64,000 nt of DNA, taken from NCBI RefSeq assembly GCF_003003125.1, contig NZ_PVTZ01000001.1, forward strand, positions 124,001-188,000, in the 5' to 3' direction. The notes under the pieces were generated by a model. That model saw only the letters and a list, made by a program, of their open reading frames with translations. It had not been told where the DNA came from and ran no database searches. Source of the stretch: Laceyella sediminis (lineage in GTDB: Bacteria; Bacillota; Bacilli; Thermoactinomycetales; Thermoactinomycetaceae). The translations under genes were made by a program, and so were the position numbers. Within the stretch, counting starts at the first letter, position 1. Each line of letters opens with the position of its first letter. Positions 13,837 through 27,840 of the stretch are shown in pieces.

Positions 13837-14334
13837 CTACTTTGGACTTCGATCTTCCGCATGGGTAATCCAGGTTTTTCGAATTTGGTAGGTAAACGTT
13901 TTTCCATTCTTTAATTTAGCATAAATACGGTCTCCGGTTTGGAGCTTCCCCACTTCCCGAAAGACGGTGTCCCGGTGACCGGAAAGAACGACATGACCGG
14001 TTTCTCCCGGCATGACCGTACCGTATCCCACATAGTGGCCCACACCTTTCGCTAATTCTTCGGCCTCGGTTCCTTCCACAATAGGAAGAATGGCACCTAT
14101 CCGTGGAATAATCAGCTCGCCGATTTTTTCTCCTTTTTTCGGTTCCCAGTTTGGTTTTTCCCCTTGAGCCAGTCCCTTTTGATACGTTCGATCCTCCCAG
14201 TCTTTCGCAATCTGTCTGGCCAACTTCGGATTCATATGAACCAACTGTGCCTGATCCCACCATTGGTATCCATTGTAAAGAGCAACCCCTCCACCGATCA
14301 GAATCATGAGAAACGCGAGTTTTCGCATGAACAT
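13837..14334 (-). pseudogene. Class D-like sortase, 3'-truncated and lacking catalytic Cys and Arg
   Basis: The 165-aa product has an N-terminal anchor (FLMILIGGGVALYNGY), the sortase barrel (GELIIPRIGAILPIVEGTE) and the catalytic His in HVVLSGHRDTVF. It stops right after TWITHAEDRSPK. In class D sortases the (T/S)TC motif and catalytic Arg lie about 20-40 residues further on. Nothing resembling them follows in any frame before 13770. As read it cannot transpeptidate. The break marks the likely left edge of the island. The start has AAGGAGGACAAAA upstream. Confidence 0.75.
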
Positions 14335-14345
14335 TTTTGTCCTCC

Positions 14346-15062
14346 TTAGAAACCAGTGAATCCACCGAATTGAGTGCTTAACCAGTTGATGATCAGAGTC
14401 ATTTGATTAAAGTAAAGTAAGATTCCGATGAAAATCACCAATATTCCCCCCACCTTTACTAACGAAGCCGAGTACCTGTGAATCCACTGGATCCGTCCTA
14501 AAAAGAAGGCCATCACAAAAAATGGGATGGCAAACCCCAGATTATATGCGGTGATATACCCCAAACCGGCACTTGGATTTATCGTAGCCAGAGCCAGTAC
14601 GGAAGACAGAATGGGGCCGATACAGGGGGTCCATCCGGCCGCAAAACCGATTCCCACCAATGTAGATCCAATGTAACCGAGACGGTTATTAGAGATTTCA
14701 AACCGTTTTTCTCTCATTAAAAACGAAGGCTTAAAAATCCCAAGCATAAATAATCCCATCGTGAAAATGAACACAGCCCCCAACATACGTAGAGTATCCT
14801 GATATTCCTTAAACCACTGACCTAGCCAGCTAAACGAAAATCCAAGAGCATAAAAAATAATGGAGAAGCCGAGAATGAAAAAAAGGGTGTGAATCATGGT
14901 TGTTTTCCGCAATTTCCACGGTTGGGATTTTTCCTTTAGTTGTCCCACTGAAACACCGGTAATATAAGAAAGATAAGAAGGATAGACAGGTAAAACACAA
15001 GGTGAAATAAATGATAGAAAGCCCGCTCCCAACGCCAGCCACCAGGTAACCTCCACCATCAT
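14346..15062 (-). CDS. ccdA: CcdA thiol-disulfide electron carrier
   Basis: CcdA passes electrons from cytoplasmic thioredoxin across the membrane to extracytoplasmic thioredoxin-like proteins. Both redox cysteines are present, in SFISPCVLPVYPSYL (helix 1) and AAGWTPCIGPILSS (helix 4). Six hydrophobic helices are evident in 238 aa. Its natural partner, a TlpA/ResA-like protein, is encoded 12 bp upstream in the same operon, which strengthens the assignment. Confidence 0.92.
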   Translation of the reverse strand: MMVEVTWWLALGAGFLSFISPCVLPVYPSYLSYITGVSVGQLKEKSQPWKLRKTTMIHTLFFILGFSIIFYALGFSFSWLGQWFKEYQDTLRMLGAVFIFTMGLFMLGIFKPSFLMREKRFEISNNRLGYIGSTLVGIGFAAGWTPCIGPILSSVLALATINPSAGLGYITAYNLGFAIPFFVMAFFLGRIQWIHRYSASLVKVGGILVIFIGILLYFNQMTLIINWLSTQFGGFTGF

Positions 15063-15074
15063 TTCCCCTCCTCT

Positions 15075-15674
15075 TTATTTGGAAATTTGCTCCATTATTT
15101 CTGTCAATTGGTCCTCTGTCATCGCTCCGATGATTTGCTTAATGATGATCCCATTCCGATCGACGATATACGTTGTGGGGATGGAAATCGCCTGATACAT
15201 CTGACTGACTTCCCCTGTTCGATCTAACAGAACCGGAAAGCTGTAGCCTTCCTCTTTTAAATACTGCTTCATCTTGGTTTCATCATCCATCGCTGTCAGA
15301 TTAACCATCAGAAAGTTGACTCGGTCTCCGTATTTCTCATAAGCTTTTTGAATATGTGGCATCTCCACTTTGCACGGTGGACACCAAGAGGCCCAAAAAT
15401 TAATTAATGTCGGTTTTCCATTGTTTTTTTTCACTTCTACCGTTTTACCATCAAGGGTCTTTAGAGAAAAGTTAGGGGCACGCATCTCCTGTTGAGGTGC
15501 CTCATCCCTTTGGACACTGCCTTTTTCCGATTGGGACTGAGCCGGTTTGTTTTCCGTTTTATTTGAAGATGGGTCTTGTGGCATGGAAGGGCCTTGCCCC
15601 GTATTCGCTGACCAAAACGCTCCTCCTATGGCAATGGCAATAACAATACCAATAAGTATATTTCGCAAATTCAT
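15075..15674 (-). CDS. Membrane-anchored TlpA/ResA-like thioredoxin
   Basis: The protein has one N-terminal anchor (ILIGIVIAIAIGGAFW), a Ser/Gln-rich linker and an AhpC/TSA-thioredoxin domain with active site NFWASWCPPCKVEMP and the cis-Pro loop SIPTTYIVDRNG. It should reduce extracytoplasmic disulfides using electrons from CcdA. The start at 15674 was chosen from the AAAGGAGA site; an earlier in-frame start overlaps the preceding gene. The target (apocytochrome c, a sortase-related pilin, or sulfur compounds) is not visible. Confidence 0.9.
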   Translation of the reverse strand: MNLRNILIGIVIAIAIGGAFWSANTGQGPSMPQDPSSNKTENKPAQSQSEKGSVQRDEAPQQEMRAPNFSLKTLDGKTVEVKKNNGKPTLINFWASWCPPCKVEMPHIQKAYEKYGDRVNFLMVNLTAMDDETKMKQYLKEEGYSFPVLLDRTGEVSQMYQAISIPTTYIVDRNGIIIKQIIGAMTEDQLTEIMEQISK

Positions 15675-15678
15675 TCTG

Positions 15679-16404
15679 TCATTTCTCCTTTCTTTTGACT
15701 GAATCATTTTTCGTTAATCCTTGAACCCATCCTATGATCGCGAAAGATGTAAACACCCATTGTTCAAAAGTGAGTCCATCTATATAAGGCGGTTTGTAAT
15801 CGAGAAAGGAAATGAATAATAAACCAACGCCTCCCGCCACAAATAAAAATCGAAATGTTTCTCCCTCCTTCCATTTTTTTCTTTTGACCCACCAAAAAAG
15901 AAAGAGAGCTGTAAGGAGGAGGAAGCGATAATAGTGGAGGGGATGATATACATATCTGCCTCCCTGAATCCCTAATCCCCACGGCATGGTAGTCGCTTCT
16001 CCTAAATCACGAAAGATCAAGTTGTACCCGGCGCAGACAAGTAAAGCAATCAGAGCAAAAGCGTCCAGGAAGGGTTGAAGTGGAACTCCGTTTCTTTTGA
16101 TCCATAGCCATAAATAGAAAATGGTAACGATACCTGCGATAAGGGCTCCTTTTAACGTTCCAGCAAAAAAGAACAACGATTGCGGATGGGACAAAATGTT
16201 TCTGAACGAAAAAAATAAGGGACTCATCTTGTAAACGATGAAAAAGACAAGTATTGCTTGTACTGCTAGATCCGACCACTTGCTCTTTTCGAGATTGAAC
16301 CACCGGTCCACCATCTTGATAGATATCCATATCAAGCTCAAAACCACCAACCAGGGGAGTGGAACGAGAAAGGGTCCCAGAGATAATAATTGCGGGTCTA
16401 AAAT
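15679..16404 (-). CDS. Divergent Lgt-like membrane protein with a probable ATT start
   Basis: The frame encodes about seven hydrophobic helices. Its N-terminus LDPQLLSLGPFLVPLPWLVV matches the opening of prolipoprotein diacylglyceryl transferases (IDPVAFSLGPxxVRWYG), and TLKGALIAGIVTIFYLWLW recalls the Lgt loop before helix 4. The Lgt HGG signature and catalytic Arg context are not evident, so it may be a non-catalytic relative. No ATG, GTG or TTG precedes the conserved N-terminus. An ATT at 16404 sits 8 nt after a perfect GAAGGAGG and is my preferred start. Internal starts from TTG 16350 would remove the conserved part. Confidence 0.6.
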   Translation of the reverse strand: MLDPQLLSLGPFLVPLPWLVVLSLIWISIKMVDRWFNLEKSKWSDLAVQAILVFFIVYKMSPLFFSFRNILSHPQSLFFFAGTLKGALIAGIVTIFYLWLWIKRNGVPLQPFLDAFALIALLVCAGYNLIFRDLGEATTMPWGLGIQGGRYVYHPLHYYRFLLLTALFLFWWVKRKKWKEGETFRFLFVAGGVGLLFISFLDYKPPYIDGLTFEQWVFTSFAIIGWVQGLTKNDSVKRKEK

Positions 16405-16439
16405 ATATCATCCCTCCTTCAGGGTCAGATGGAAGATAA

Positions 16440-16563
16440 CATGGCTGCAGTTTTATTAACAGCTTTTCTTAACTCTACTTTTCGGAAAAAACAAGTTTCA
16501 GATTAACTCTTGATCCTAACCTCATTTTGTTAAGAAATGATGAAGTCAAACAGTGAGTTCTTG
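16440..16563 (-). promoter_or_regulatory. Promoter region of the redox operon with GTTAA repeats
   Basis: On the minus strand this 124-bp gap carries several GTTA(A/G) elements, including two pairs spaced 13 bp (GTTAGG...GTTAAT and GTTAAG...GTTAAT). Such direct repeats are the usual binding pattern of OmpR/PhoP-family response regulators. No clear -35/-10 pair was found. Confidence 0.3.
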
Positions 16564-17742
16564 CTATACACATCTTGATTCCGCCTCATGACAATCAAAC
16601 GCAGATTCTACTTTTTGAATGCTAAACCAGAACGAATGTTCATTTTTGTTAGAATGTAACCCTACGTTTCCTCCATGTTGTTCCACAATTTCTTTCACGA
16701 TGGCTAAACCTAATCCAGAACCGCCTGTATGGCGTTGACGAGACGGATCTACGCGAAAGAATGGTTCAAATATGCGGGGTTGCATTTCTTCGGGAATCGG
16801 TTGGCCGATGTTCGTGATGGTGATGATATATTTCTTGTCTATCGATTTTCCTGTCACGGTCAATTTTCGTCCCACATCATATTGAATGGCATTTTTTAAT
16901 AAGTTGTTGAGTACTTGTTTCATTCCGTCTTTATCCATCCAGACGGTCTCAGGAGTCATGGAAACATGGACCTTCATTTCTTTGTTTTGTAATTCCAACT
17001 TAAAATTTTGAAGGCAGTTTTCCATGAATTCTTGAACATCCACTTTTTCGAAGGAGAGTGGCTTCATTTTTCTGGCTTCCCAAATGGTTAGTTGATGGAG
17101 TTCTTCAACCAGTTCTGTAAGATGGATGGATTCCTGGTAAAGCATATGGTAAAGGGTCTGGTCCCCCTGAAGAATTCCAGAACTTAGCGCTTCCAGATAT
17201 CCTTTTAAATTAGTTAGCGGTGTTCGAAGCTCATGAGATATATCACTGAGCATTTGTTTGCGGCTTTCTTCCGTTTTCTTTAATGTAAAGACCAGGTGAT
17301 TAAAATCACGTGTTAACCTTCCTATTTCATCTGGGGACAAAACAGGGAGTGGTTTTGGATAGTTTCCCTCAGTCATCAATCGGGTGGATTCGACTAGCTT
17401 TTGAAGAGGAACCAAGATTCTATTTATAAAGAAATAATGAATGACTGAAGCAACGACAATAGCCAATAGACTGGCTCTTAGCAAATAAAATTGCATCGTA
17501 CTATCGAAAAAACGGCTCTTATCTTCTCCAACAAGGTGGTATTGTCCAACCAAAAGACAGGCAAAATCTTTCACGGAAACTCCGGCAAGCCAGATCACAA
17601 CACTGATGACAAGGACATTGATCAAAATTAATTTCCATTGCAAAGATTTTTTCCAAATAAAAATTCGGCTAAAAGGCAACAAAACGATACCCCATTCCCC
17701 GTATCGTTTCGATAAAGTTGGGTACGGATTCGTCTGTTTCAA
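16564..17742 (-). CDS. Sensor histidine kinase (HAMP-HisKA-HATPase)
   Basis: The 392-aa kinase has two membrane helices around residues 35-52 and 88-108 enclosing a short extracytoplasmic loop. A HAMP domain, the H-box SDISHELRTPLTNLKG (about 170), the N-box QVLNNLLKNAIQYD and the G-boxes GSGLGLAIVKEIVEQHGG follow. It partners the response regulator whose stop codon lies inside its 5' end. The nominal start at 17742 overlaps that gene by 74 bp; a later TTG start near 17685 is possible. The signal is unknown, but its neighbours suggest a redox or sulfur stimulus. Confidence 0.9.
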   Translation of the reverse strand: MKQTNPYPTLSKRYGEWGIVLLPFSRIFIWKKSLQWKLILINVLVISVVIWLAGVSVKDFACLLVGQYHLVGEDKSRFFDSTMQFYLLRASLLAIVVASVIHYFFINRILVPLQKLVESTRLMTEGNYPKPLPVLSPDEIGRLTRDFNHLVFTLKKTEESRKQMLSDISHELRTPLTNLKGYLEALSSGILQGDQTLYHMLYQESIHLTELVEELHQLTIWEARKMKPLSFEKVDVQEFMENCLQNFKLELQNKEMKVHVSMTPETVWMDKDGMKQVLNNLLKNAIQYDVGRKLTVTGKSIDKKYIITITNIGQPIPEEMQPRIFEPFFRVDPSRQRHTGGSGLGLAIVKEIVEQHGGNVGLHSNKNEHSFWFSIQKVESAFDCHEAESRCV

Positions 17743-18361
17743 TTTTCTCCCTCAATTTGCTTACATGGACATCCACCGTCCGTTCCAGGACAATTTTTTC
17801 ATCATGGGGATATAGTTCTTCAAGGATTTGTTTTCTTGTTAAGATTTGATTGGGATGCCTCATGAAAAAGTACAGTAGTTTGAACTCATGCTGTGTCAAC
17901 GAAATCGATTTTCCGTTATACTTCACTTCTCCACGGAGTGGTTTTATGGTTAAGCCTCTATAGCTGATCTTGCTGCATCGGTGTGCAGTACGGCGGAGAA
18001 CGGTCTCCACACGGGCGATTAATTCATTCAGGCTAAACGGCTTTGTGATATAATCGTCCGCTCCCATCTGCAAACCCTGGATTTTTTCCTGTTCACTCAC
18101 TTTTGCCGTCAGCATGATGATGGGAACATCACTTTTTAAATCACAGCGCATCCACTTACATAATTCTTCACCGCTTTTCTTGGGAAGCATGAGGTCCAAA
18201 ATGACAAAACAAGGATCGTACTTGCTAAAGACGTTCATCCCTTCCTCTCCGTCCCCGGCTTCCAAAACTTCATAACCCTCATTTTCTAAACAAATTTTAA
18301 TTAAACGCCTGATGTTTGGATCATCTTCTACAATTAAGATGGTCTTCCCCTTTAAAGTCAT
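17669..18361 (-). CDS. OmpR/PhoB-family response regulator
   Basis: The receiver domain has the acidic pair in VEDDPN, the phospho-Asp in CFVILDLMLPKKSG and the switch Lys in DYITKPFSLNELIA. The C-terminal winged helix ends with TVDVHVSKLREKIE and IRGMGYRFVAF. It is followed by and overlaps the cognate kinase. Direct TGTTAA repeats in its own promoter suggest autoregulation. Confidence 0.93.
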   Translation of the reverse strand: MTLKGKTILIVEDDPNIRRLIKICLENEGYEVLEAGDGEEGMNVFSKYDPCFVILDLMLPKKSGEELCKWMRCDLKSDVPIIMLTAKVSEQEKIQGLQMGADDYITKPFSLNELIARVETVLRRTAHRCSKISYRGLTIKPLRGEVKYNGKSISLTQHEFKLLYFFMRHPNQILTRKQILEELYPHDEKIVLERTVDVHVSKLREKIETDESVPNFIETIRGMGYRFVAF

Positions 18362-18447
18362 TCAATCCCTCTTTTCAAATCACTTTTCATGGATAAAGAA
18401 GTAACATTCGTAAACCCCTCAACCTGTAATTCATGTTATCCATTGAA

Positions 18448-18463
18448 TGTTAAGATTTGTTAA
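18448..18463. promoter_or_regulatory. TGTTAA direct repeats upstream of the response regulator
   Basis: TGTTAA-GATT-TGTTAA (two exact hexamers, 10-bp period; TTAACA on the regulator's strand) lies 87 bp before the regulator's start. This is the arrangement bound by PhoP/OmpR-type regulators. Confidence 0.45.
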
Positions 18464-18583
18464 AGATAATAAATGGGGATTTCTTGAATAACACCGATCT
18501 TGCCCCATCATTTCAAGAAAGCGGCCACCACTGACCGGTTCATTCCTTCTATTTTCAGTCTCAAATGAATGATCCAGTGGGTG

Positions 18584-18612
18584 TTGACAAAAAGCAGTGT
18601 CCTTTATATTAT
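18584..18612 (+). promoter_or_regulatory. Promoter of the persulfide operon
   Basis: A perfect -35 TTGACA (18584-18589), a 17-bp spacer and -10 TATTAT (18607-18612) face the rhodanese operon. Confidence 0.75.
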
Positions 18613-18633
18613 ACCCATAGGCGTATAGGTATA
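18610..18633. promoter_or_regulatory. CstR-type operator 1, overlapping the -10
   Basis: TATACC at 18610-18615 and GGTATA at 18628-18633 are inverted arms around an imperfect centre. The element begins inside the -10 box, so occupancy would block RNA polymerase. The sequence fits the CsoR/CstR pattern of TACC/GGTA arms. Confidence 0.6.
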
Positions 18634-18678
18634 TCAACCAAACCACCGACATTTAGGTTGGTATTTTTTATCCGCCTT

Positions 18679-18700
18679 CACATACCCATATGGGTATGTG
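18679..18700. promoter_or_regulatory. CstR-type operator 2, perfect 22-bp palindrome
   Basis: The segment from CACATACCC to GGGTATGTG is exactly self-complementary over 22 bp and contains the ATACCC-N4-GGGTAT core expected for CsoR/CstR-family repressors. It lies in the 5' untranslated region of the operon whose last gene encodes CstR. Confidence 0.7.
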
Positions 18701-18756
18701 TATAAGGATCTCTTCCTTTGGAAAATTTAATTTCGACAAGAAAGGAGGGAGTTTTT

Positions 18757-19065
18757 ATGAAAAAAACCATTCCAACCATTACACCGCAAGAAGTGGAACA
18801 TCGGCTCCAAAAAGGAGAGAAACTGAACATTATTGATGTTCGGGAAGCGGAAGAAGTAGCGGAGGGAAAAATCCCGGAAGCGAAACATATGGCTTTGGGG
18901 ACTCTGGCCGACCGGCTGCATGAATTGGATCCAGGCAATGAATACATCATGGTCTGCCGTTCAGGTGGCAGAAGTGAGCGGGCCTGTGAGTTTTTGCAAG
19001 AACAAGGGTTTAAAGTGAAAAACATGGTCGGTGGGATGCTCGCTTGGAAAGGAAAGACGCAATAA
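18757..19065 (+). CDS. Single-domain rhodanese sulfurtransferase
   Basis: This 102-aa cytoplasmic rhodanese has DVREAEEVAEGKIPEA and the active-site loop VCRSGGRS with the persulfide-forming Cys, then a conserved GGMLAWKG end. It should move sulfane sulfur between thiosulfate or persulfide donors and low-molecular-weight or protein thiols. It is the first gene of the operon, with an AAAGGAGGG site, and follows the CstR operators. Confidence 0.92.
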   Translation: MKKTIPTITPQEVEHRLQKGEKLNIIDVREAEEVAEGKIPEAKHMALGTLADRLHELDPGNEYIMVCRSGGRSERACEFLQEQGFKVKNMVGGMLAWKGKTQ

Positions 19066-19082
19066 AAAAGGAGGAAAAGAAT

Positions 19083-19658
19083 ATGTCCATCAAAGTCGAT
19101 GCTCAGCTAGATTGTAAAGGACTCTCCTGTCCTATGCCCATTGTTCGCACCAAAAAAGCGATGGATCAACTGGAACCTGGTCAGGTGATTGAGGTACAGG
19201 CGACTGACCCTGGATCCCTGGCAGATATTCAAGGATGGGCAAAAAGCACGGGGCATCAATACCTGGGCACGAAACAAGAAGGAGATGTATTGAAGCATTA
19301 TTTGCGAAAAGCCAGTGAATCCGAATTAAAGGAAGAGCGGAAGCATCCTCATGTGATTCAAAACGAGGAGTTATTAAAAAAACTGGATAGCGATGAAGGA
19401 TTTATTCTTATAGATGTTCGTGAACCAGCGGAATATGCTTTTGGACATATTCCCGGGGCTTGTTCGATTCCATTTGGTCAATTGGAAGAGCGTATGAATG
19501 AAATCCCAAAGGATCAACCTATTTATGTCATCTGTCGCACAGGAACCCGTAGCGACATGGCTGCCCAACAGTTAACCAAGCATGGATTTAAAAATGTGAT
19601 TAATGTCGTTCCGGGAATGTCCAAGTGGACAGGTCCAGTCGAACAAGAAGAAAAATAA
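19083..19658 (+). CDS. TusA-rhodanese fusion protein (YrkF-like)
   Basis: The N-terminal TusA/SirA domain (1-75) has the sulfur-carrier Cys in GLSCPMPIVRTKKAMDQL. The C-terminal rhodanese (about 95-190) has DVREPAEYAFGHIPGA and loop ICRTGTRS. The fusion would relay persulfide sulfur from the rhodanese Cys to the TusA Cys, as in the S. aureus CstA and B. subtilis YrkF types. The ATG at 19083 has an AAAGGAGGA site 18 bp after the preceding stop. Confidence 0.92.
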   Translation: MSIKVDAQLDCKGLSCPMPIVRTKKAMDQLEPGQVIEVQATDPGSLADIQGWAKSTGHQYLGTKQEGDVLKHYLRKASESELKEERKHPHVIQNEELLKKLDSDEGFILIDVREPAEYAFGHIPGACSIPFGQLEERMNEIPKDQPIYVICRTGTRSDMAAQQLTKHGFKNVINVVPGMSKWTGPVEQEEK

Positions 19659-19671
19659 GGAGAGATGATTG

Positions 19672-20067
19672 ATGAGCAGAAAAGTTGCCATTATCGCGAG
19701 CAATGGCGGTTTGTTCGATGCCTATAAAGTATTCAATATTGCTACGGCTGCGGCCGCTGCAGATGCAGAAGTAGCCATTTTCTTCACCTTTGAAGGGTTA
19801 AATCTCATCCATAAGGACGCGCATCAACAATTGCCCGTCCCCACAGGGAGAGAGCATTACATGGAAGGATTTAAAAAAGCCAATGTTCCTTCCATTCCTG
19901 AATTGTTGCAGATGGCACAAGAAATGAATGTCAAGCTGATTGCTTGCCAGATGACTATGGATGTCATGAGTTTGAAAAAAGAAGACTTTGTAGACGGAGT
20001 CGATGTTGGCGGGGCAGCTACGTTCCTGCATTTTGCCCAAGACGCCGATGTCACACTCACATTTTAA
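19672..20067 (+). CDS. DsrE/DsrF-like family protein (YrkE type)
   Basis: The 131-aa DsrE-fold protein opens [21 protein letters not shown], has [14 protein letters not shown] and carries the conserved Cys in [13 protein letters not shown] near residue 90. DsrE proteins act as sulfur-accepting partners of TusA. The ATG at 19672 was preferred to the adjacent TTG because of the AAGGAGA spacing. Confidence 0.88.
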
Positions 20068-20086
20068 TGAGGAGGTGTTCATTTCC

Positions 20087-21217
20087 ATGGTAAAAATGAT
20101 GACGGCAGAAGAAGCCGCCAAAAAAGTGATTCATGAAGAGCTCTTTATCCTGGATGTACGCAATGAAGAGGATTATAGAAACTGGAAAATTGAAGGCAAA
20201 AACGTGGAATCCATCAATATTCCATATTTTGATCTCATTGATGGTGTAGAACACGCATTGGAAAAATTGCCGAAGGATGAGAGAGATATTTTGGTCGTCT
20301 GTGCAAAAGAAGCTTCATCCAAATTTGTCGCGGAGCAATTGGATGAAGCGGGTGTGGATGAAGTGTATTACCTGCAAGGCGGTATGAGAGCGTGGAGCGA
20401 ATACCTCTATTCGGTCAAAATCGGGGATCTGAAGAATGGTGGAAGTATCTATCAGTTTAACCGGATTGGAAAGGGATGCCTTACCTATCTGGTTGAGTCT
20501 AATGGCGAAGCGGCGATCATTGATGCAGTAAGGATGACCGAGACGCTTGAGCAATTTGCCAAAGAAAAAGGACTCGCGATTAAATACCTGATTGATACCC
20601 ACCTTCATGCCGACCATATCTCAGGTGGTCGCAAACTTGCTGAAAAACTGGGGGCAACCTATTATCTTCCGCCTAAAGATGCGACAGAAGTAACCTTCTC
20701 ATACCAACCGTTAGAAGAAGGAGAAGATATTTTCGTCGGAAACACGCGCATCCGGATTCAGCCCTTGTACTCACCAGGTCATACAATTGGAAGCACATCC
20801 CTCATTGTGGATGATCAATATCTTCTTTCCGGAGACATCTTGTTTGTGGATTCCATCGGGCGCCCTGACCTGGCTGGAAAAGCCGAAGACTGGGTTGGAG
20901 ATTTGCGTCGCACTCTCTATCAGTTGTATAAACAACTTTCACCAGAACTCCTCGTTCTGCCGGCGCATTTTGGAAAAATAAGTGAAATGGATGATCAAGG
21001 ACGCGTGTGTGCCAAATTGGGAGATCTGTATGCCAAAAACGCAGGACTGCAAGTAGAAGATGAACAGGTATTCCGGAAAATGGTGACGCAGAATCTCCCG
21101 CCTCAGCCCAATGCTTATCAGGAAATTCGTCAAACCAATATGGGGAAATTGACTCCTACAGAAGATGAACAACGCGAAATGGAAATCGGCCCTAACCGTT
21201 GTGCCGTTCATGATTAA
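20087..21217 (+). CDS. Rhodanese-ETHE1-like persulfide dioxygenase fusion (YrkH/CstB-like)
   Basis: An N-terminal rhodanese (1-115) with Cys in [12 protein letters not shown] precedes an ETHE1-type metallo-beta-lactamase domain (about 125-345). The canonical ligand motifs are all present: [35 protein letters not shown] and LPAHFGK. ETHE1 proteins oxidise glutathione or bacillithiol persulfide to sulfite with non-heme iron, and a linked rhodanese adds sulfur transfer, as in S. aureus CstB. The start at 20087 has GAGGAGG upstream; a second ATG three codons on is possible. Confidence 0.88.
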
Positions 21218-21246
21218 ATTCACTTGTCCAGGAAGGATGATGAAAA

Positions 21247-21474
21247 ATGAACGCAGATAAAGTGTTAGATGCAAGAGGACTTTCTTGTCCCATGCCCGTT
21301 GTTCGCACCAAAAAAGCGATCGATGAGTTAAAACCAGGCCAGATCTTAGAACTTCATACAACAGATTCAGGCGCTTTAAGTGACATCCCTGCCTGGGCCA
21401 AAACAGCCGGGCATCGAGTGATCGAACAAAGCGAAGATAACGGTGTGTATAAATTCTGGATCCAAAAGGGCTAA
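21247..21474 (+). CDS. TusA-family sulfur carrier (YrkI-like)
   Basis: This 75-aa stand-alone TusA has the active Cys in ARGLSCPMPVVRTKKAIDEL and a GHRVIEQ strand at the end. It closely resembles the TusA half of the fusion encoded at 19083, suggesting duplication. It lies 29 bp after the CstB-like gene with a GGAAGGATGATG leader. Confidence 0.92.
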   Translation: MNADKVLDARGLSCPMPVVRTKKAIDELKPGQILELHTTDSGALSDIPAWAKTAGHRVIEQSEDNGVYKFWIQKG

Positions 21475-21484
21475 GGGATTCAAA

Positions 21485-21535
21485 GATGATCTCCTTCATC
21501 CTGTCCATGAAGGAGAAGGATCGAAGGAGATCATC
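21485..21535 (+). repeat. Long intra-operonic hairpin
   Basis: GATGATCTCCTTC (21485-21497) and GAAGGAGATCATC (21523-21535) pair over 13 bp without mismatch, and ATCCT/AGGAT extend the stem inward. No T-tract follows, so it is more likely an mRNA processing or stabilising element than a terminator. Confidence 0.7.
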
Positions 21536-21571
21536 TCATTTAAAAATATCAAATGGGAGAGGGAGATATAG

Positions 21572-22048
21572 ATGGAAAACAATAAATCAACCTTGATTGT
21601 ATTTAGTGGCGATTTGGATAAAGCCATTGCGAGTTTTATTATTGCAACGGGATCTGCTGCGATGGGAAACCAAGTGACCATGTTTTTTACCTTTTGGGGA
21701 CTGAACATTCTTCGTAAAGAGCAGTACGTACCTGTACAAAAATCATTCATGGACAAGATGTTTGCCAAGATGTTGCCAAGAGGGCCTGAAAAGTTGGGGA
21801 TTTCTAAGATGAACTTTGGTGGCTTGGGAGCCAAATTGATGAAATACACCATGAAAAAGAAAAACATTACGACTCTGAAAGAGCTGATCGAAATGGCAAA
21901 AGAGCTGGATATTAAAATGGTGGCATGTACCATGTCTATGGATGTACTGGGAATTAAGAAAGAAGAGTTGATTGACGGACTTGAGTATGCTGGCGTTGCA
22001 TCTTATCTTGCAGAAGCGAATGAGGCAAACATTAACTTGTTTATCTAA
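21572..22048 (+). CDS. DsrE2-type DsrE/DsrF/DrsH-like protein
   Basis: The 158-aa protein begins [20 protein letters not shown], carries [15 protein letters not shown] and the Cys motif [13 protein letters not shown], and has an inserted basic amphipathic segment (about 50-90) typical of the longer DsrE2 group. It is a paralogue of the 19672 product. It probably accepts sulfur from TusA at the membrane surface, next to the exporter encoded downstream. Confidence 0.87.
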
Positions 22049-22065
22049 GAAAGAAGTGTTCGGAT

Positions 22066-22842
22066 ATGGATATAGGATTCATGGTACTCATTTTTTTGAT
22101 CGGATTTATCGGTTCTTTCATATCAGGGATGGTAGGGATTGGAGGTTCTATCATTAAATACCCAATGCTCCTTTATATCCCTCCTCTACTGGGATTTGCT
22201 GCCTTTACTACCCATGAAGTGTCAGGTATTAGCGCGATTCAAGTTTTTTTTGCCACGATTAGTGGTGTTTTCGCTTATCGAAAAGGCGGATATCTAAATA
22301 AGTCTCTCATCATCTATATGGGAATCAGCATTTTGATTGGTAGTTTCATCGGTGGATATGGTTCCAAGCTACTCAGCGAAGGGCAAATCAACCTTGTTTA
22401 TGCTATATTGGCTACGATTGCCGCTCTCATGATGTTTGTACCAAAAAAAGGTCTTGATGATATTCCTCTCAATCAAGTAACATTTAATCCTACACTAGCT
22501 GCCGTCTCGGCTTTTATCGTAGGGCTAGCTTCTGGGATTGTAGGGGCAGCAGGTGCCTTTATTTTGGTTCCGATTATGCTTGTCGTCTTGAAAATCCCTA
22601 CTCGGATGACCATTGCTACCTCACTCGCCATTACATTCATTTCTTCAATTGGTTCAACTGTAGGCAAAATCATGACAGGACAGGTTCTTTTCCTTCCATC
22701 CATCATTATGGTTGTCGCTAGCATTATCGCTTCTCCACTGGGGGCTAGTGTTGGGAAAAAGGTGAATCCCAAAGTTTTACAGGTGATTTTGGCTGTGCTA
22801 ATTGTAGCAACATCGGTAAAAATTTGGTTGGATCTCCTTTAA
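22066..22842 (+). CDS. TauE/SafE family anion exporter (YrkJ-like)
   Basis: The 258-aa polytopic protein has eight hydrophobic segments and two internally related halves. The half-signatures are [21 protein letters not shown] and [18 protein letters not shown]. In cst-type operons this protein is thought to export sulfite or related products of persulfide oxidation. Its position after the dioxygenase and sulfur carriers supports that role. Confidence 0.9.
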
Positions 22843-22870
22843 TCCCCCCAAAACTTCATGGGGGATTTTT
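22841..22870 (+). terminator. Intra-operonic terminator
   Basis: AATCCCCC (22841-22848) and GGGGGATT (22860-22867) form a perfect stem followed by TTT. Readthrough or a second promoter is needed for the rhodanese-cstR pair downstream. Confidence 0.75.
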
Positions 22871-22894
22871 CTATCAAGGGAGGGGGAATCTTCA

Positions 22895-23281
22895 ATGAAT
22901 AGTATTTTCATTGGTATTATCGTATTATTAGGTGGGATTCTTTATTTTTTCCTCATGAATCGGGGCATTCAAACAGTAAGCCCGAGTGAATTAATGAAGA
23001 TCACAGAAAACAAAAAAGTTCGTTTGATTGATGTTCGGGAAAAACATGAATTTCAGTCAGGTCATATACCTGGGGCTATAAACATCCCGCTAAGCCAAAT
23101 GGAGTTATTAAAAAGTAAGTCTTCCGAATGGGATCCGAACGAAAGCATTTATCTATACTGCCGAAGCGGTTCGCGAAGCGCGATAGCCGCTCGACAATTA
23201 CGCAAGCTCGGGTTCCAGCAAGTGATTCATCTTCAAGGTGGACTCATGCGTTGGAAAGGACCGATCAGAAAAAGCAAGTAA
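22895..23281 (+). CDS. Membrane-anchored rhodanese
   Basis: An N-terminal transmembrane helix (SIFIGIIVLLGGILYFFLM) is joined to a rhodanese domain with DVREKHEFQSGHIPGAI and active loop YCRSGSRS. It is 128 aa long. The domain should face the cytoplasm or envelope side near the TauE exporter. It is separated from tauE by a terminator and lies 13 bp before cstR. Confidence 0.9.
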   Translation: MNSIFIGIIVLLGGILYFFLMNRGIQTVSPSELMKITENKKVRLIDVREKHEFQSGHIPGAINIPLSQMELLKSKSSEWDPNESIYLYCRSGSRSAIAARQLRKLGFQQVIHLQGGLMRWKGPIRKSK

Positions 23282-23294
23282 GGGGGATAGACTA

Positions 23295-23561
23295 ATGATT
23301 TATGATGACGATGTGAAAAGACGGTTACGCCGTATTGAAGGACAGGTTCGAGGAGTATTACGCATGATGGATGAAGATAAAGATTGTAAAGATGTCGTAT
23401 CGCAATTATCCGCGATTCGTTCAGCTGTGGACCGGTCGATCGCGTATATTCTCACTCATAACTTGGAGCAATGTATTCGCAAGGAATTGGAAAAAGATCA
23501 AAACGCAGATACCACAAGATTACTGAAAGAAGCCATGGATCTCCTAGTCAAAACCAGATAA
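23295..23561 (+). CDS. cstR: CstR, persulfide-sensing CsoR-family repressor
   Basis: The 88-aa all-helical protein has the CsoR-family opening VKRRLRRIEGQVRGVLRMM. Its only cysteines are Cys31 (EDKDCKDVV) and Cys60 (NLEQCIRK), exactly the pair that forms di- to tetrasulfide cross-links in S. aureus CstR. In copper CsoR a His and a third ligand are also required. The operators at 18610 and 18679 suggest that it represses the operon it terminates. The ATG follows AAGGGGGATAG. Confidence 0.92.
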   Translation: MIYDDDVKRRLRRIEGQVRGVLRMMDEDKDCKDVVSQLSAIRSAVDRSIAYILTHNLEQCIRKELEKDQNADTTRLLKEAMDLLVKTR

Positions 23562-23591
23562 TACAAACGGTTAAAACGATATATTATCTAA

Positions 23592-23632
23592 AACTCGATT
23601 TCTCGCTAACGTAGTGAAAAATCGGGTTTTTT
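23592..23632 (+). terminator. Terminator of the cst-type operon
   Basis: AACTCGATTT pairs with AAATCGGGTT across a mid-size loop, followed by TTTTTT. Confidence 0.75.
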
Positions 23633-23650
23633 ATTCATTTCTAATCTTAG

Positions 23651-23840
23651 AGTAGAATTCATGATCAAAGAAATCCACCCCAGCCGGAGAACTATAAAAA
23701 AATCCGGAGAATCAATGGGAAAGCAGAATACTCGAGGAAGGTCCCAAAATACGGGTGCTTCTTTAAACCCAGCAGTTGGAGGAAGGTCTGATGCAATATC
23801 CAGAAACCCGAGAACGAATAAAAATCGGGGTACGGAAACC
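23651..23840 (+). pseudogene. Decayed inverted duplicate of the metallo-beta-lactamase/MFS gene junction
   Basis: Read on the plus strand, VEFMIKEI, a one-base frame slip, and then PPQPENYKKIRRINGKA reproduce the C-terminus of the 25262 protein (EFMTKDIPPKPENYEKIRKI). After a gap, GGAGGAAGGTCTG and MQYPETRERIKIGV reproduce the ribosome site and start of the MFS protein (MKYPETREQVKIGL). Nucleotide similarity to the minus strand of about 25170-25330 is obvious by eye. Both partial frames are broken. The rest of the gap (23841-23957) holds only hairpins. Confidence 0.7.
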
Positions 23841-23881
23841 AAAAACAAAATCAGGGGCCACTCTTTACCAGAGTGGCTCCG
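23836..23881 (-). terminator. Probable terminator of the MFS gene
   Basis: GCCACTC/GAGTGGC forms a stem with a 7-nt loop, followed on the minus strand by TTTTGTTTTT. A second palindrome, GGTTCTTT/AAAGAACC, lies at about 23924-23940. Confidence 0.5.
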
Positions 23882-23957
23882 GTAGGTTTGAGACTACTAG
23901 CCTGCTACCTTTTCAGCAGTCTCCCGGTTCTTTTAAAGAACCTGGATGTTTACTAAG

Positions 23958-25202
23958 TCATTTTCTCAATGTCTCTTTCATGCGAAAGGCTATCGTCAAT
24001 CCTGCCAGCAAGGGTAATAACGCCACCATCCCGATCGCCCAAGAGATGTTCAATACATCGGCAAGGATCCCTGCCATCAAGGCCCCGAACGCGTAACCGC
24101 TGTCCCGCCAAAGGCGGTACACTCCCATGGCTGACGCCCTCCATTCCGGGTGTGCCACATCGCTGATCGCCGCTTGCAACGTAGGATAGACCATGGCAGT
24201 ACCCAACCCCAATAAAATTGCTCCAATAATCCACGAAACAAAAGAATCCGTAAACAGAATCCACCAGATGGACATGGCTTGCAGCCACATGCCGGAAGCG
24301 ATCATCCATTTGCGGCCGATCCGGTCGCTCAGCACTCCCGTGAACAACTGGAAAAAGCCCCACGCAGCGGGATAGAGAGCGACGATGATCCCGATTTTTC
24401 CGACAGCCAAACCTGCCGAGGCGAAGAACAGCGGAAACAGTCCCCAGGCCATTCCGTCTTTCAAATTGGTGGATAAACCGGCGAAGCTGCAACTGGACAG
24501 TGTTGGATCCTTCCACGTGGTTTGCCGCAACACGTTGCTGGTTGACATCTGTTGATCCGATTCCGTTTGTTCTTGTTGCCGGGACTGCAGTTTCAGATGT
24601 TTGCCGGTGTCCTTTACCATGAGAGACAAAATCAACCCAATTCCTACAAAACCGATACCCAGATAAAAGGGTTCCGGTCGCAGGTCATATTGCGAGGCGA
24701 TATATCCGGAAAGGACGGTGGCCAAAGCAACGCCGATATATCCCGCGAATTCATTCAGACCGATGGCCAATCCTCTTTGTTGAGCGGTAACCAGATCCAC
24801 TTTCATGTTGACGGTCACGGACCATGTCAGCCCTTGATTGATCCCCAAGAGGACGTTGGCAAAGACGATCCACCACCAGGAGTCCGCCCATATGACGATC
24901 AAAGGGACAAACAGTCCAATGATCCAGCCAGTGACCAATACTTGCTTTCGTCCTATCCAATCGGCAATCCGGCCGGCCAGGAAATTAACAATGGCTTTGG
25001 TGAATCCAAAGCTGACGATAAACGACAAGGCGGCGCTTGCAGACGCCAGACCAAAGACTTTTTCTCCGAGAAGGGGAAGAACCGTCCGTTCCAAGCCGAC
25101 CATGGATCCGACAAACAAATTAATCACGACCAGCAAGGCAAACAACGCGAAATTTTCCTTTAAGCCAATTTTTACTTGTTCTCGTGTTTCTGGATATTTC
25201 AT
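23958..25202 (-). CDS. MFS transporter of the sulfur island
   Basis: The 414-aa major facilitator has 12 predicted helices. Characteristic loops are GRIADWIGRKQVLVTGW (motif A, about 75-90) and GVLSDRIGRKWMIASGM in the second half. The start at 25202 (MKYPETREQV) has CTGGAGGAAGG upstream. It is the last gene of the ArsR-rhodanese operon, which suggests export of a sulfur compound, but the substrate cannot be read from sequence. Confidence 0.85.
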   Translation of the reverse strand: MKYPETREQVKIGLKENFALFALLVVINLFVGSMVGLERTVLPLLGEKVFGLASASAALSFIVSFGFTKAIVNFLAGRIADWIGRKQVLVTGWIIGLFVPLIVIWADSWWWIVFANVLLGINQGLTWSVTVNMKVDLVTAQQRGLAIGLNEFAGYIGVALATVLSGYIASQYDLRPEPFYLGIGFVGIGLILSLMVKDTGKHLKLQSRQQEQTESDQQMSTSNVLRQTTWKDPTLSSCSFAGLSTNLKDGMAWGLFPLFFASAGLAVGKIGIIVALYPAAWGFFQLFTGVLSDRIGRKWMIASGMWLQAMSIWWILFTDSFVSWIIGAILLGLGTAMVYPTLQAAISDVAHPEWRASAMGVYRLWRDSGYAFGALMAGILADVLNISWAIGMVALLPLLAGLTIAFRMKETLRK

Positions 25203-25231
25203 CAAACCTTCCTCCAGCTGCTGGATTTGAA

Positions 25232-25255
25232 GAAGGCCCCGATTTTGGGGCCTTC
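25232..25255 (-). terminator. Hairpin between the metallo-beta-lactamase and MFS genes
   Basis: GAAGGCCCC and GGGGCCTTC form a perfect 9-bp stem with a 6-nt loop, but no T-run follows. It may attenuate or stabilise the message rather than end it. Confidence 0.5.
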
Positions 25256-25261
25256 CCTTTA

Positions 25262-25996
25262 TTAATTTGCCTTTCCCTCATTGATTTTCCGGATTTTTTC
25301 ATAGTTCTCCGGCTTCGGGGGGATATCTTTGGTCATGAATTCCACAAACTCTTCTTTGGATTGTATTTGCAGGGCCTTATTCAGCCGCTTTTCAAAACCG
25401 ATGGTCGAAGAAGGTTTGCCGCTTAAGAACCGACCGCAGACAGATCCCGAATAGGCTCCTGGATATACTTCAATGTGGTCATCTAATTTCATCAGTTTAT
25501 TAAACAGGCTGTCGTACAAATCGCCAGCCCCTTTTTCCAAGGAGGATGCAAGCTCCGTACGTCCGACATCTCCGACCATCAGCGTATGGCCCGTTACAAC
25601 AAACCAGGGCTCATCCCCTCTCGGGGTATCCGATACCAGAAGGGAAATGTGTTCCGGAGTGTGACCGGGGGTATGCAAGATCTTGATTTTGGTATTCCCC
25701 GCCATGATTTCATCCCCGTCATCCACCGGGGTAAAGTCATATTGAACATCCGCAGAACGGTGCAAGATGTATTTGGCACCGGTTTGTTCGGCCAATTTTC
25801 TTCCCCCGGAAACATGGTCTGCATGCAGGTGGGTATCAAAGACATATTCAATGTTCAAGCCCAGTTTTTTGGCTTCCTCAATATAAAGGTCTATGTCTTC
25901 CACAGGATCCACTACAACCCCTTGCGCTTTGCTACCACATCCAAACAGATAGGAAATAGCAATCGGATTCGTGTGCAAGTATTGACGAAAGATCAT
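25262..25996 (-). CDS. Persulfide dioxygenase-like metallo-beta-lactamase protein with altered metal ligands
   Basis: The 244-aa protein has the first ligand motif [12 protein letters not shown] and the second HTPGHTPEHIS. Where ETHE1 proteins have the iron-ligand Asp in (S/T)GDxLF, this one reads VTGHTLMVGDVGRTEL. Where PAHF is usual it reads YPGAYSGSVCGRFLSGKPSS, so two ligand positions differ. I recall such variants as a natural subfamily, so this may be functional rather than decay. The start at 25996 has GGGAGG upstream; longer frames lack a site. It is co-transcribed with the ArsR-rhodanese gene. Confidence 0.8.
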   Translation of the reverse strand: MIFRQYLHTNPIAISYLFGCGSKAQGVVVDPVEDIDLYIEEAKKLGLNIEYVFDTHLHADHVSGGRKLAEQTGAKYILHRSADVQYDFTPVDDGDEIMAGNTKIKILHTPGHTPEHISLLVSDTPRGDEPWFVVTGHTLMVGDVGRTELASSLEKGAGDLYDSLFNKLMKLDDHIEVYPGAYSGSVCGRFLSGKPSSTIGFEKRLNKALQIQSKEEFVEFMTKDIPPKPENYEKIRKINEGKAN

Positions 25997-26021
25997 CGTG
26001 AAAACCTCCCTGTATGCTTTA

Positions 26022-26681
26022 TCAAGAAGTGGTCTGAATCTCTTTCCATTCTCGTACTCCATCCTCCAAACGAATCGCTTCGATACCATGGGAACGAAAC
26101 CATTTGACGGCTTCAGCTGCATAAACACAATATCGTCCTCGGCAATAGGCTACAATTTTTTTATCCCGTGGAAGTCGGGACAGATGTTGTTCCAACTCTT
26201 GTACCGGTATGGACAAGGCCCCCGGAATATGGGCGAATTCGAATTCTTCCCTGGGACGAACATCAATCAATACCAGATCCTCATTTTGGAGCCGAGACTT
26301 TAATTCGTCGATTCCGATCGGTTCCAGTACATCGTGATTGGCTAGAAACTCATCCCGAAGTTGCTTTACTTCGGCCAATAAGTCTTCGCCAAGCTCTTGC
26401 ATCAAAAGAAGTAATCGGTTGATTTTCGGATCGGATAATCGGTAAATGGCGTAATTACCTTTCTTTTGAAATCGAACCAAGCGGGCTTCCAGAAGGGTTT
26501 GCAGATGCTGAGACACATTGGCGACACTCATGCCTGTTTCTCGAGACAATGTCTCAACGGTTTTGGGGCTTTGAGACAACAAATCGAGAAGTTCTAGTCT
26601 ACGGGGGCTGGATAAAGCTTTGCCGATCCGGGCAAATTGGACGTATACTGCGTCCTTAAACATACGCGAATCTAAATTCAC
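26022..26681 (-). CDS. ArsR-family repressor fused to a rhodanese domain
   Basis: Residues 1-90 form an ArsR winged helix (VQFARIGKALSSPRRLELL, TVETLSRETGMSVANVSQHL recognition helix, YAIYRL wing). Residues about 110-215 form a rhodanese with DVRPREEFEFAHIPGAL and active loop AYCRGRYCVYAAEA, which has two cysteines. The DNA-binding half has no Cys, so the rhodanese loop is the likely persulfide sensor. The GTG at 26681 has GGGGAGG eight bases upstream; an earlier GTG overlaps that site. Confidence 0.88.
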   Translation of the reverse strand: MNLDSRMFKDAVYVQFARIGKALSSPRRLELLDLLSQSPKTVETLSRETGMSVANVSQHLQTLLEARLVRFQKKGNYAIYRLSDPKINRLLLLMQELGEDLLAEVKQLRDEFLANHDVLEPIGIDELKSRLQNEDLVLIDVRPREEFEFAHIPGALSIPVQELEQHLSRLPRDKKIVAYCRGRYCVYAAEAVKWFRSHGIEAIRLEDGVREWKEIQTTS

Positions 26682-26701
26682 AACATTCACCTCCCCTTCA
26701 A

Positions 26702-26725
26702 CTATTCAACTAATCTATTGAATAG
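26702..26725. promoter_or_regulatory. ArsR-type operator before the ArsR-rhodanese operon
   Basis: CTATTCAA and TTGAATAG are perfect 8-bp arms around an 8-bp centre. The element abuts a minus-strand -10 (TATACT, about 26725-26730) of the operon, so it could mediate autorepression. ATTC/GAAT arms are known for persulfide-responsive ArsR regulators such as SqrR. Confidence 0.6.
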
Positions 26726-26802
26726 TATACCGCATTAATCTAGGGTTTAAACACAGGTTTTTTTAACCAAGAAATTTTCTAGTGTTTCCATCGTAGAAAC
26801 TC

Positions 26803-26886
26803 CATTCTGCGATATAATCGAAGGGGTTCCATCAGAGAACGCCGATCAAAGAGCAGATTATCCCTCGGAATTTTTATCGCAGAATG
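26803..26886. repeat. 12-bp inverted repeat framing the recombinase promoter and leader
   Basis: CATTCTGCGATA (26803-26814) and TATCGCAGAATG (26875-26886) are exact inverted copies 60 bp apart. The left copy overlaps a -10-like TATAAT (26813-26818) and the right copy ends just before the AAAGGAGG ribosome site of the recombinase gene. Confidence 0.7.
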
Positions 26887-26907
26887 ATTTTCAAAGGAGG
26901 TCGGTTT

Positions 26908-27786
26908 GTGCATCCTACGATTCCCAATTTTTTATTCGACCTGAAATCGGACGGAAGAAGTCAGAAAACCCTGAAAACATACGAGGGAGTGATCCATCGG
27001 TTTATCAGGTGGTTTGAAGAGACGACAGGGGAACCATTTAACCCTGAGAACGTAACCCCAATTGACGCAGCAGAATATAAACAGTATCTCCTGAATCGAT
27101 CCAAACCAGCCACAGTTAACAAGACCCGTATCGCACTGAAACGGTACTTCGATTGGCTTGTGAAACAAGAAATGTTAAAGGAATCTCCCTGGAGTGCCAT
27201 CCGACCTGTCAAGCAGGGTCGAAGAGCTCCCCGATGGCTAGATCGTAAAGAGCAACGTGCTCTTCTCTGGGCCGTTCAACAAGGGCGAAAGCCGCGGGAC
27301 ATCGCAATAGTGTACTTACTCCTGCATGCGGGGCTCCGAGTTGAGGAATTGTGCCTCCTGCGCCTAGAAGACGTGGAGATGTCTGAACGGAAAGGCAAAG
27401 TGATCGTTCGCCAAGGAAAGGGTGGGAAATGGCGAGAGGTGCCGCTGAACCGTGACGTCCGAAAGGCGCTTGAATCGTGGTTGGAAGTTCGTCCTGCCTC
27501 AAGTCCTTGGCTGTTTGTTTCCACCAGGTCTGAGCGGATGACCCCTCGCGCGGTTCAGTTTGTTGTGCGAAAATATGGCCAACGGGCGGGACTGGAACAT
27601 TGTACTCCCCATGTATTGCGACACACGTTTTGTCATGAATTAGCGGTCAAGGGAGTATCCCTCGACGTGATTGCCATGTTGGCAGGACATATGACTGCCG
27701 ACGGTCGCCCTAACATTGCTACAACGGCCATCTATACCACACCAGGGGACCAGGACCTGCGCCGTGCCGTTGATCAACTTTCATGA
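26908..27786 (+). CDS. Tyrosine recombinase / integrase
   Basis: The 292-aa protein has an N-terminal core-binding domain (KTLKTYEGVIHRFIRWF, about 20-100) and a C-terminal catalytic domain. The catalytic set is complete: Arg in HAGLRVEELCLLRL, Lys in GKGGKWREVPL, HVLRHTFCHELA, AGH and the Tyr nucleophile in AIYTTPGD. The GTG at 26908 was chosen because AAAGGAGG lies eight bases upstream. It sits at the right end of the AT-rich block beside host genes, consistent with an island integrase. Confidence 0.92.
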   Translation: MHPTIPNFLFDLKSDGRSQKTLKTYEGVIHRFIRWFEETTGEPFNPENVTPIDAAEYKQYLLNRSKPATVNKTRIALKRYFDWLVKQEMLKESPWSAIRPVKQGRRAPRWLDRKEQRALLWAVQQGRKPRDIAIVYLLLHAGLRVEELCLLRLEDVEMSERKGKVIVRQGKGGKWREVPLNRDVRKALESWLEVRPASSPWLFVSTRSERMTPRAVQFVVRKYGQRAGLEHCTPHVLRHTFCHELAVKGVSLDVIAMLAGHMTADGRPNIATTAIYTTPGDQDLRRAVDQLS

Positions 27787-27821
27787 GAATAGGGGGGTGA
27801 AGAGTGTATAGCCGCACTCGA

Positions 27822-27840
27822 GAACTTCTGGAGAAAGTTC
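27822..27840. other. Candidate recombination core site after the integrase
   Basis: GAACTT and AAGTTC are perfect arms around a 7-bp centre, 35 bp after the recombinase stop. The geometry of short inverted arms with a 6-8 bp spacer is that of tyrosine-recombinase core sites. A simple hairpin is the alternative. Confidence 0.3.

Follow-up and report, generated by a model that had tools for sequence, protein, structure and literature searches.

A probable transposon-derived island pairing persulfide-detoxification genes with a membrane thiol-handling module in Laceyella sediminis

To our knowledge, the bacterial regulators known to sense persulfides, such as CstR and SqrR/BigR, act in the cytoplasm. 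The closest known functional cluster to the locus described here is yrkD-nreBC-sqr-pdo of Bacillus licheniformis, in which, according to the published account (PMC9918477), the CstR-like YrkD senses sulfane sulfur and NreBC is a sulfide-sensing system acting on sqr and pdo. One persulfide cluster there already has two sensors, although with another kind of kinase; most such kinases have a PAS domain. As to mobile elements, three of 190 Tn3-family members are named with the resolvase TnpI in a survey (PMC7157771), namely Tn4430, Tn5401 and TnBth4. We analysed a window of 64,000 nt (G000:C1:124001-188000) of the 3.39-Mb Laceyella sediminis genome, which holds a 14-kb island. In the island, an operon of a known type for persulfide detoxification is joined by a membrane module for thiol handling, which is found repeatedly beside such operons in several bacterial families. 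The island derives from a TnpI-type transposon, most likely by way of a circle. Coordinates are those of the window unless a genome (G), contig (C) or locus (L) number is given.

The insertion and its origin

An earlier note, made from the sequence of the window alone, had described an integrated, AT-richer block of about 14 kb lying between a truncated sortase gene and a complete tyrosine recombinase gene, and had proposed that close relatives and base composition be checked. The comparison was run with the sister species G001, no further genome of the genus being present among the 61 compared, and the block is absent there. Both flanks are present 18 bp apart, with nothing between them (L023 17529 and 17548), in sequence that follows the window collinearly on either side for the 40 kb fetched; identity is 94-96% for the most part and 86.8% in the first 1.7 kb. 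As the G001 sequence passes from window position 13804 to window position 27832, the whole insertion measures 14,027 bp (13805-27831). The difference in composition is also borne out. The GC content of 13837-27840 is 44.2%, against 48.5% in the left flank and 51.1% in the right flank, and the mean GC at third codon positions (GC3) is 0.458 for 16 island open reading frames (ORFs) versus 0.588 for 48 flanking ORFs, the ORFs having been chosen mechanically (Mann-Whitney p = 6.5e-8). Judged by the empty site and by composition, the block is an insertion derived from elsewhere and not ancestral. The limits given in the earlier note need adjustment, and the truncated sortase gene belongs to the element, where it closes the redox operon, instead of being flanking DNA.

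The recombinase (26884-27786, plus strand) was recognized by Pfam and is 97% identical over 290 of its 300 residues to the protein in L026 and 95% identical to that in L140. In G026, which belongs to another family of the order, the recombinase gene is followed at once by a gene for a 988-aa transposase that scores 1036.7 bits against NF033527, the NCBIfam Tn3 model (cut-off 500); the end of this tnpI frame differs. The tnpI-tnpA pair was also found in G030, G032 and G038 (TnpI 95%, 77% and 82% identical), with a tnpA that is partial or broken. While tnpA is whole in L026, 774 of the 988 residues remain in L140 and 275 in L142, and the gene in L141 is broken. A distant pair (TnpI 37%, TnpA 59%) is on a Halobacillus amylolyticus plasmid. 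The window keeps the order of tnpI followed by tnpA, with tnpA cut after 27 nt. An inverted repeat of the kind that serves as TnpI substrate is found just upstream of tnpI in the window, in G026, G030, G032 and G038, and in G039, where tnpI is broken. In the window this core-like recombination site (26791-26812, plus strand; G000:C1:150791-150812) has one mismatch to the 22-base pattern and occupies the place of the irs repeats IR1-IR2, as a putative substrate of TnpI. On the evidence of gene neighbours and core, the recombinase is a TnpI-type transposon resolvase and not an island integrase.

Both ends of the island carry pieces of tnpA in the same orientation, and all that is left of the gene comes from its first 75 nt. 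The left end (13804-13847, plus strand) corresponds to nt 33-75 of the tnpA frame and is 95.5% identical to L026:3106-3148 of G026 (E 2.6e-12). The right end (27804-27830, plus strand) consists of the first 27 nt of tnpA, matching G026 up to L026:3100, and is followed by the chromosome. At the left junction one base is shared, and at the right junction one base is unassigned. The two ends lie next to each other within the 5' end of a single tnpA, and a circle that was opened inside this gene explains this most simply. Such a circle would have been formed by TnpI acting between two core sites, broken once inside tnpA and joined to the chromosome by illegitimate recombination resembling non-homologous end joining, with losses of about 5 bp of the circle (relative to G026) and 18 bp of the chromosome (relative to G001). 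As neither terminal repeats nor a target duplication were found, the element is a transposon derivative and not an intact transposon.

Other routes were weighed against this one. The earlier note, with its integrated block beside a complete recombinase, suggests a classical genomic island, in which the recombinase would be the integrase and would have placed the block at an attachment (att) site. The insertion is clean and the recombinase is at one end beside the junction, as such a route predicts. However, in four genomes its homologues immediately precede a Tn3 transposase gene, the core-like site beside it is internal and about 1 kb from the junction, and the island ends are tnpA pieces. 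Moreover, the longest direct word common to the two junctions (100 bases on each side) has 7 bases, which is less than many random pairs share (a word of at least 8 bases in 453/1000). We regard integration of this type as highly improbable; the idea of an integrated, imported block stands, but the integrase route does not. Direct Tn3-type transposition, with both transposon ends deleted afterwards and no circle, is unlikely. Tn3 elements insert by transposition and an origin from that family is well supported. But two independent deletions would have had to meet within 5 nt of each other (tnpA nt 27 and nt 33) with the halves swapped, where a circle needs one break, and no terminal repeats were found.

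That the block is ancestral and was lost from the sister species is hardly credible, even though a second cst operon is present on contig C6 of the same genome. The GC3 of the island genes is shifted, transposon pieces are found at both island ends, and G001 lacks a TusA-rhodanese of the island kind: the query matches there only weakly or over one domain (best E 4e-18), and no such cst operon is seen. In addition, full-length ArsR-rhodanese occurs in only 3/23 genomes of the family, yet it is 96% identical in another family. Sequence comparison shows derivation of the island from a TnpI-type Tn3-family transposon, most likely arriving as a circle. We hold the account as a whole to be probable, and this degree of confidence covers jointly the origin and the working model given below. 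Some observations weigh against it. No inverted match to the tnpA tail that could convincingly represent Tn3 terminal inverted repeats was seen in the window or its relatives, no relative with a closed tnpA junction was found, and no circle was seen directly. If correct, it shows how a circle opened in tnpA can become fixed in a chromosome. An autonomous plasmid was considered as a source and rejected, as Pfam detected no replication gene among 20 island reading frames; a megablast search of a plasmid collection with the whole island gave no match.

Origins of the cargo

The cargo is a mosaic, judging from sequence identities, with three modules whose nearest relatives are in different genomes. 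Identity to G026 is 97% for the MFS, 100% for the MBL and 96% for the ArsR-rhodanese protein (DNA 96.7% identical over 2.9 kb); to G037, from a further family, it is 88, 94 and 88%, respectively. The proteins of the nine-gene cst operon are instead 91-98% identical to those of G010, which represents another genus of the Laceyella family and has neither the redox operon nor the ArsR-rhodanese operon within the 20 kb fetched. CcdA, TlpA and the Lgt-fold protein that we call LgtX are nearest to those of G016 from the same family (83%, 68% and 59%, respectively), where the kinase gene is interrupted.

The core site appears as the boundary of this variation. In a comparison of eight core sites, taken from six genomes, the upstream stretches of 400 bases proved unrelated in 26 of 28 pairs, while the core and the next bases were kept throughout, the values of 0.61-0.64 downstream of the core for pairs that include the window site being lowered by a one-base gap in an ungapped comparison. 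One of the two related pairs consists of the site on contig C4 of L. sediminis and the first G026 copy, whose 92% identity reaches as far as the core and which have the same cadC-like cargo (named by eye). In the other, the second G026 copy and G038 share pieces at differing distances from the core. In G026, a pair of cores in direct orientation (L025 and L026; C8:285633 and C8:302060) encloses 16.4 kb with cst, ArsR-rhodanese and ars-type genes (the last identified by eye), and this segment would be an excisable unit if TnpI acts there. The island illustrates how sulfur-stress cargo from several families may come together on TnpI-type transposons.

A stretch just downstream of cstR (23652-23828, plus strand; 84.6% identical to L025) repeats, in inverted orientation and at 79-88% identity, the MBL-MFS junction at 25165-25345, where the MBL gene ends and the MFS gene starts; from this match it is a remnant of another MBL-MFS operon. 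The C4 copy of the core is at 9988-10049 of L139 (G000:C4:52000-71900), near a distant Tn3 transposase (23%). In an unrelated genome, G305, a distant TnpI-TnpA pair (35% and 31%; L265 8400-14933) is a few kb from an ArsR-rhodanese/MFS locus.

Sulfur operons and regulators

The four groups of genes listed in the earlier note, namely a two-component system, a redox operon, a CstR operon and an ArsR-rhodanese operon, were all recovered in Pfam and NCBIfam scans. However, the "two sensors" it counted are three regulators: the two-component system, CstR and ArsR-rhodanese.

The two-component system consists of an OmpR-type response regulator (17669-18361, minus strand; Pfam) and a histidine kinase (16564-17742, minus strand) identified by Pfam. 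The outside region of the kinase is short and mostly variable, apart from Ala61-Cys62, which is invariant in 8/8 distinct full-length kinases (window, L088, L181, L157, L164, L259, L260 and L261). Hydropathy and a low-confidence structure model (predicted local distance difference test score, pLDDT, 71.6; predicted template modelling score, pTM, 0.52), used only for the position of this residue, both place Cys62 at the outer end of the first transmembrane helix. When the kinase was the sole query, it was found in 5/398 genomes of the phylum at E <= 1e-55, the L. sediminis genome included. CcdA and TlpA adjoin it in all four others, of which two have cst genes in the same stretch, one a single rhodanese and one no sulfur gene. 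In all eight loci read, the kinase has CcdA and TlpA as neighbours, and CstR or rhodaneses are often close by. As a membrane protein whose outside cysteine is invariant, the kinase is a candidate sensor of reactive sulfur at the cell surface that can be tested directly.

The cst operon is on the plus strand and its genes were assigned by Pfam. They encode a rhodanese (18718-19065), a TusA-rhodanese fusion (19083-19658), a DsrE-like protein (19669-20067), a rhodanese-MBL protein that is a CstB/YrkH-like persulfide dioxygenase candidate (20090-21217), TusA (21247-21474), a DsrE_2 protein (21572-22048), a member of the TauE/SafE sulfite exporter family (22066-22842), a rhodanese predicted from hydropathy to be membrane-anchored (22895-23281) and a CstR-type repressor (23292-23561). 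Alignment of the last shows Cys32, Asn57 and Cys61, that is, two cysteines and, at position 57, a residue other than the His that CsoR-type sequences have there. By this residue pattern it is a persulfide-type repressor, and release by sulfane sulfur is predicted. The likeness to yrk/cst systems that the earlier note saw is upheld. Two palindromes resembling CstR operators precede the operon (18611-18697, plus strand), one with a single mismatch (18611-18626) and one exact (18682-18697). The window contains four ATACCC/GGGTAT palindromes with at most two mismatches against 1.56 expected, and 8/100 shuffles reach four; the argument for operators comes from position and the exact match and not from the count. 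The second cst operon of this genome is at about 8900-12920 of L279 (G000:C6:11000-30900), with CstR 91% and TusA-rhodanese 89% identical. In G016, a CstR homologue (69%; L048 402-665) is without the second cysteine.

The third operon is on the minus strand and encodes an MFS transporter (23958-25205; Pfam), an MBL-fold protein that is a second persulfide dioxygenase candidate (25262-26128; Pfam) and the ArsR-rhodanese regulator (26022-26690; Pfam, alignment). The earlier note had called the coupling to a second, rhodanese-fused regulator less familiar. Regulators of this type are common: matches were found in 40/398 genomes of the class at 42 places (E <= 1e-30), in two genomes over the C-terminal part only. 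The sole cysteines of the island protein, Cys183 and Cys188 in the rhodanese loop, are kept in 31/31 homologues for which DNA was at hand, while 18 of the 31, including that in the window, have no cysteine before residue 125 (the helix-turn-helix, HTH, part). In BigR/SqrR the sensing pair is in the ArsR domain. No such HTH cysteine is present in the island protein, which scores 32.0 bits against the NCBIfam BigR model NF040642 (cut-off 155). Thus, the island regulator resembles BigR/SqrR in having an ArsR fold linked to MBL and sulfur genes, but differs in that its cysteine pair is in the fused rhodanese. The distribution of cysteines points to a rhodanese-loop sensor unlike BigR/SqrR, and the sensor cysteines appear to have moved into that loop. 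No report on sensing by ArsR-rhodanese was found in the literature, though this is a weak absence as subscription journals were thinly covered, and the cysteine data offer a second testable point on sulfur sensing. An RNA-family scan at gathering thresholds gave no match inside the island; the right flank has ordinary RNAs identified by Rfam, a thiamine pyrophosphate (TPP) riboswitch (53026-53136) and RNase P RNA (58890-59311).

The redox module, its partners and known systems

The redox genes are on the minus strand. CcdA, a CcdA/DsbD-type membrane thiol transporter (14346-15062; Pfam, alignment), keeps its SPC and TPC motifs. TlpA (15075-15707; Pfam, NCBIfam) is a TlpA/ResA/StoA-like membrane-anchored thioredoxin with CxxC at 109-112. 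The last gene encodes a class D sortase (13837-14334; NF058671 163.9 bits, cut-off 140) whose C-terminus was lost at the tnpA junction; the lost part carries, in the longer relatives L085 and L086, an ITC stretch that presumably includes the catalytic cysteine. LgtX (15679-16350) scores 21.6 bits against the Pfam LGT model, below the cut-off of 24.9, and searching PDB sequences with an LgtX profile retrieved no Lgt, only one irrelevant match (E 0.82). However, a structure model (mean pLDDT 79.5) has E. coli Lgt (5azb) as its best Foldseek match (E 4.9e-4, TM 0.65), the next match having E 1.1. HGG and GR.GNF.N, which we take to be the catalytic motifs of Lgt, are absent from 8/8 aligned LgtX sequences and present in four true Lgts (L280, L282, L283 and L285; L284 was left out of the comparison), while two shorter paralogues (L289 and L290) retain GR.G only. 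L. sediminis encodes an Lgt of its own elsewhere, at C2:71999 (262.7 bits). From the model and the motifs, LgtX is an Lgt-fold protein and most likely not a lipid transferase.

Relatives of LgtX were detected in 86/398 genomes of the class at E <= 1e-3, and neighbourhoods were fetched for the better-scoring places only; TlpA is in 36/38 fetched stretches that show LgtX. In the 22 genomes with the best LgtX matches (E <= 3.3e-15, L. sediminis included), a CstR-like regulator (E <= 2.4e-20) is within 10.5 kb of LgtX in 10, against 0.19 expected from density, though the P of about 1e-15 is nominal as several of these genomes are closely related. The linked cases come from five families (f1, f2, f3, f6 and f13), the distance in G041 being about 10 kb, and the three regulators from f13 are CstR-like, 43-49% identical, and lack the CsoR histidine. 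One unlinked genome, G116, is represented by a 5.5-kb contig that could not show linkage. In four more genomes (G036, G038, G039 and G040) a rhodanese is 2-3 kb from LgtX, and in L088 and L033 redox and cst genes are contiguous on the same strand. Hence, the coupling of the redox module to CstR operons, which the earlier note had called less familiar, is recurrent and not local to the island. It does seem to be undescribed: no CstR/rhodanese cluster with CcdA, TlpA, an Lgt-like protein and a two-component system was found in the literature searched, with the same thin coverage of subscription journals. The partnership is unequal. When loci were drawn by CstR (the best 80 of at least 583), CcdA and TlpA were within 10 kb in only 3/54 loci that are CstR-type by residues (Chryseomicrobium aureum and two Paucisalibacillus) and in 0/24 CsoR-type loci. 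The relay is therefore an occasional partner of CstR, while CstR is a frequent partner of the LgtX-type relay.

The working model was drawn from protein families and conserved residues. In it, the redox module would watch and repair the outer face of the membrane. Cys62 of the kinase would report extracytoplasmic sulfane sulfur or disulfide stress, and CcdA would hand cytoplasmic electrons to TlpA, with LgtX as its putative membrane partner, for the reduction of outside persulfides or disulfides. In the cytoplasm, CstR would free the operon for rhodanese, TusA, DsrE, rhodanese-MBL and TauE once the Cys32-Cys61 pair takes up sulfane sulfur, and ArsR-rhodanese, as the third sensor with its chemistry in the Cys183/Cys188 loop, would free the MBL oxygenase and an exporter. 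Jointly the three systems would take in polysulfide stress from outside, oxidize it to sulfite and export it. We tentatively suggest, as a possibility well short of an even chance, an undescribed extracytoplasmic system for sulfane-sulfur or thiol stress in which a sensor kinase with one invariant outside cysteine is tied to a reductant relay of CcdA, TlpA and a catalytically dead Lgt-fold protein and is repeatedly recruited beside CstR operons. TnpI-type Tn3 elements, exchanging their cargo at the resolution site, would spread it. If so, Gram-positive cells would detect polysulfide stress at the outer face and reduce it there, before it comes to CstR in the cytoplasm.

Several points tell against the working model, whose sensing and electron-flow functions are all predictions. 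The kinase module occurs without sulfur genes in the stretch read in L260 and with only a rhodanese in L259, 12/22 genomes with a close LgtX have no CstR within 10.5 kb (including all three LgtX places of G023), CcdA and TlpA are rare at CstR-drawn loci, and relatedness reduces the weight of the linkage P. Some LgtX or TlpA/CcdA loci also have a copper-type CsoR. In L115-L117 (f5), TlpA, CcdA, a membrane rhodanese and CstR form one run without LgtX, together with CsoR, a second TlpA and a rhodanese, and L116 adds a P-type ATPase and a cysteine-synthase-like protein (identified by eye); this cluster may link copper and persulfide control. The redox module might, then, serve copper handling or the thiols of sortase and other exported proteins, and be a chance co-passenger of the cst operon, which would also suit the sortase gene that closes the redox operon in the window, L085 and L086. 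Against chance stand the 10 linked genomes in five families, the rhodaneses within 3 kb of LgtX and the contiguous same-strand layouts, and we put a co-passenger role at well below an even chance.

The island can now be set beside the known systems. The cst operon of Staphylococcus aureus resembles it in having a CsoR-family two-cysteine repressor with rhodanese, MBL, TusA and TauE genes, and differs in domain order and gene set. The island version also differs in sitting on a transposon derivative. As in Tn4430, Tn5401 and TnBth4, tnpI is colinear with tnpA and the core inverted repeat (irs) is directly upstream of tnpI, but Tn4430 has no known passenger genes according to the survey (PMC7157771), whereas the island has a large sulfur cargo and a tnpA in pieces. 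No description of TnpI transposons with sulfur cargo was found, again in literature that covers subscription journals thinly. TnpR-type Tn3 transposons exchange toxin-antitoxin modules at the res site, according to the same source (PMC7157771). There, as here, the cargo differs up to the recombination site; the island involves TnpI and irs, and metabolic cargo. The cluster of B. licheniformis shares with the island a CstR-like regulator (YrkD), genes of the yrkE/F/H/I/J set (homologues of DsrE, rhodanese, a hypothetical persulfide dioxygenase, TusA and TauE) and a two-component system (PMC9918477). However, no sqr was found among the scanned island genes, and the island kinase, whose outside loop is short and contains a single cysteine, is accompanied by TlpA, CcdA and LgtX.

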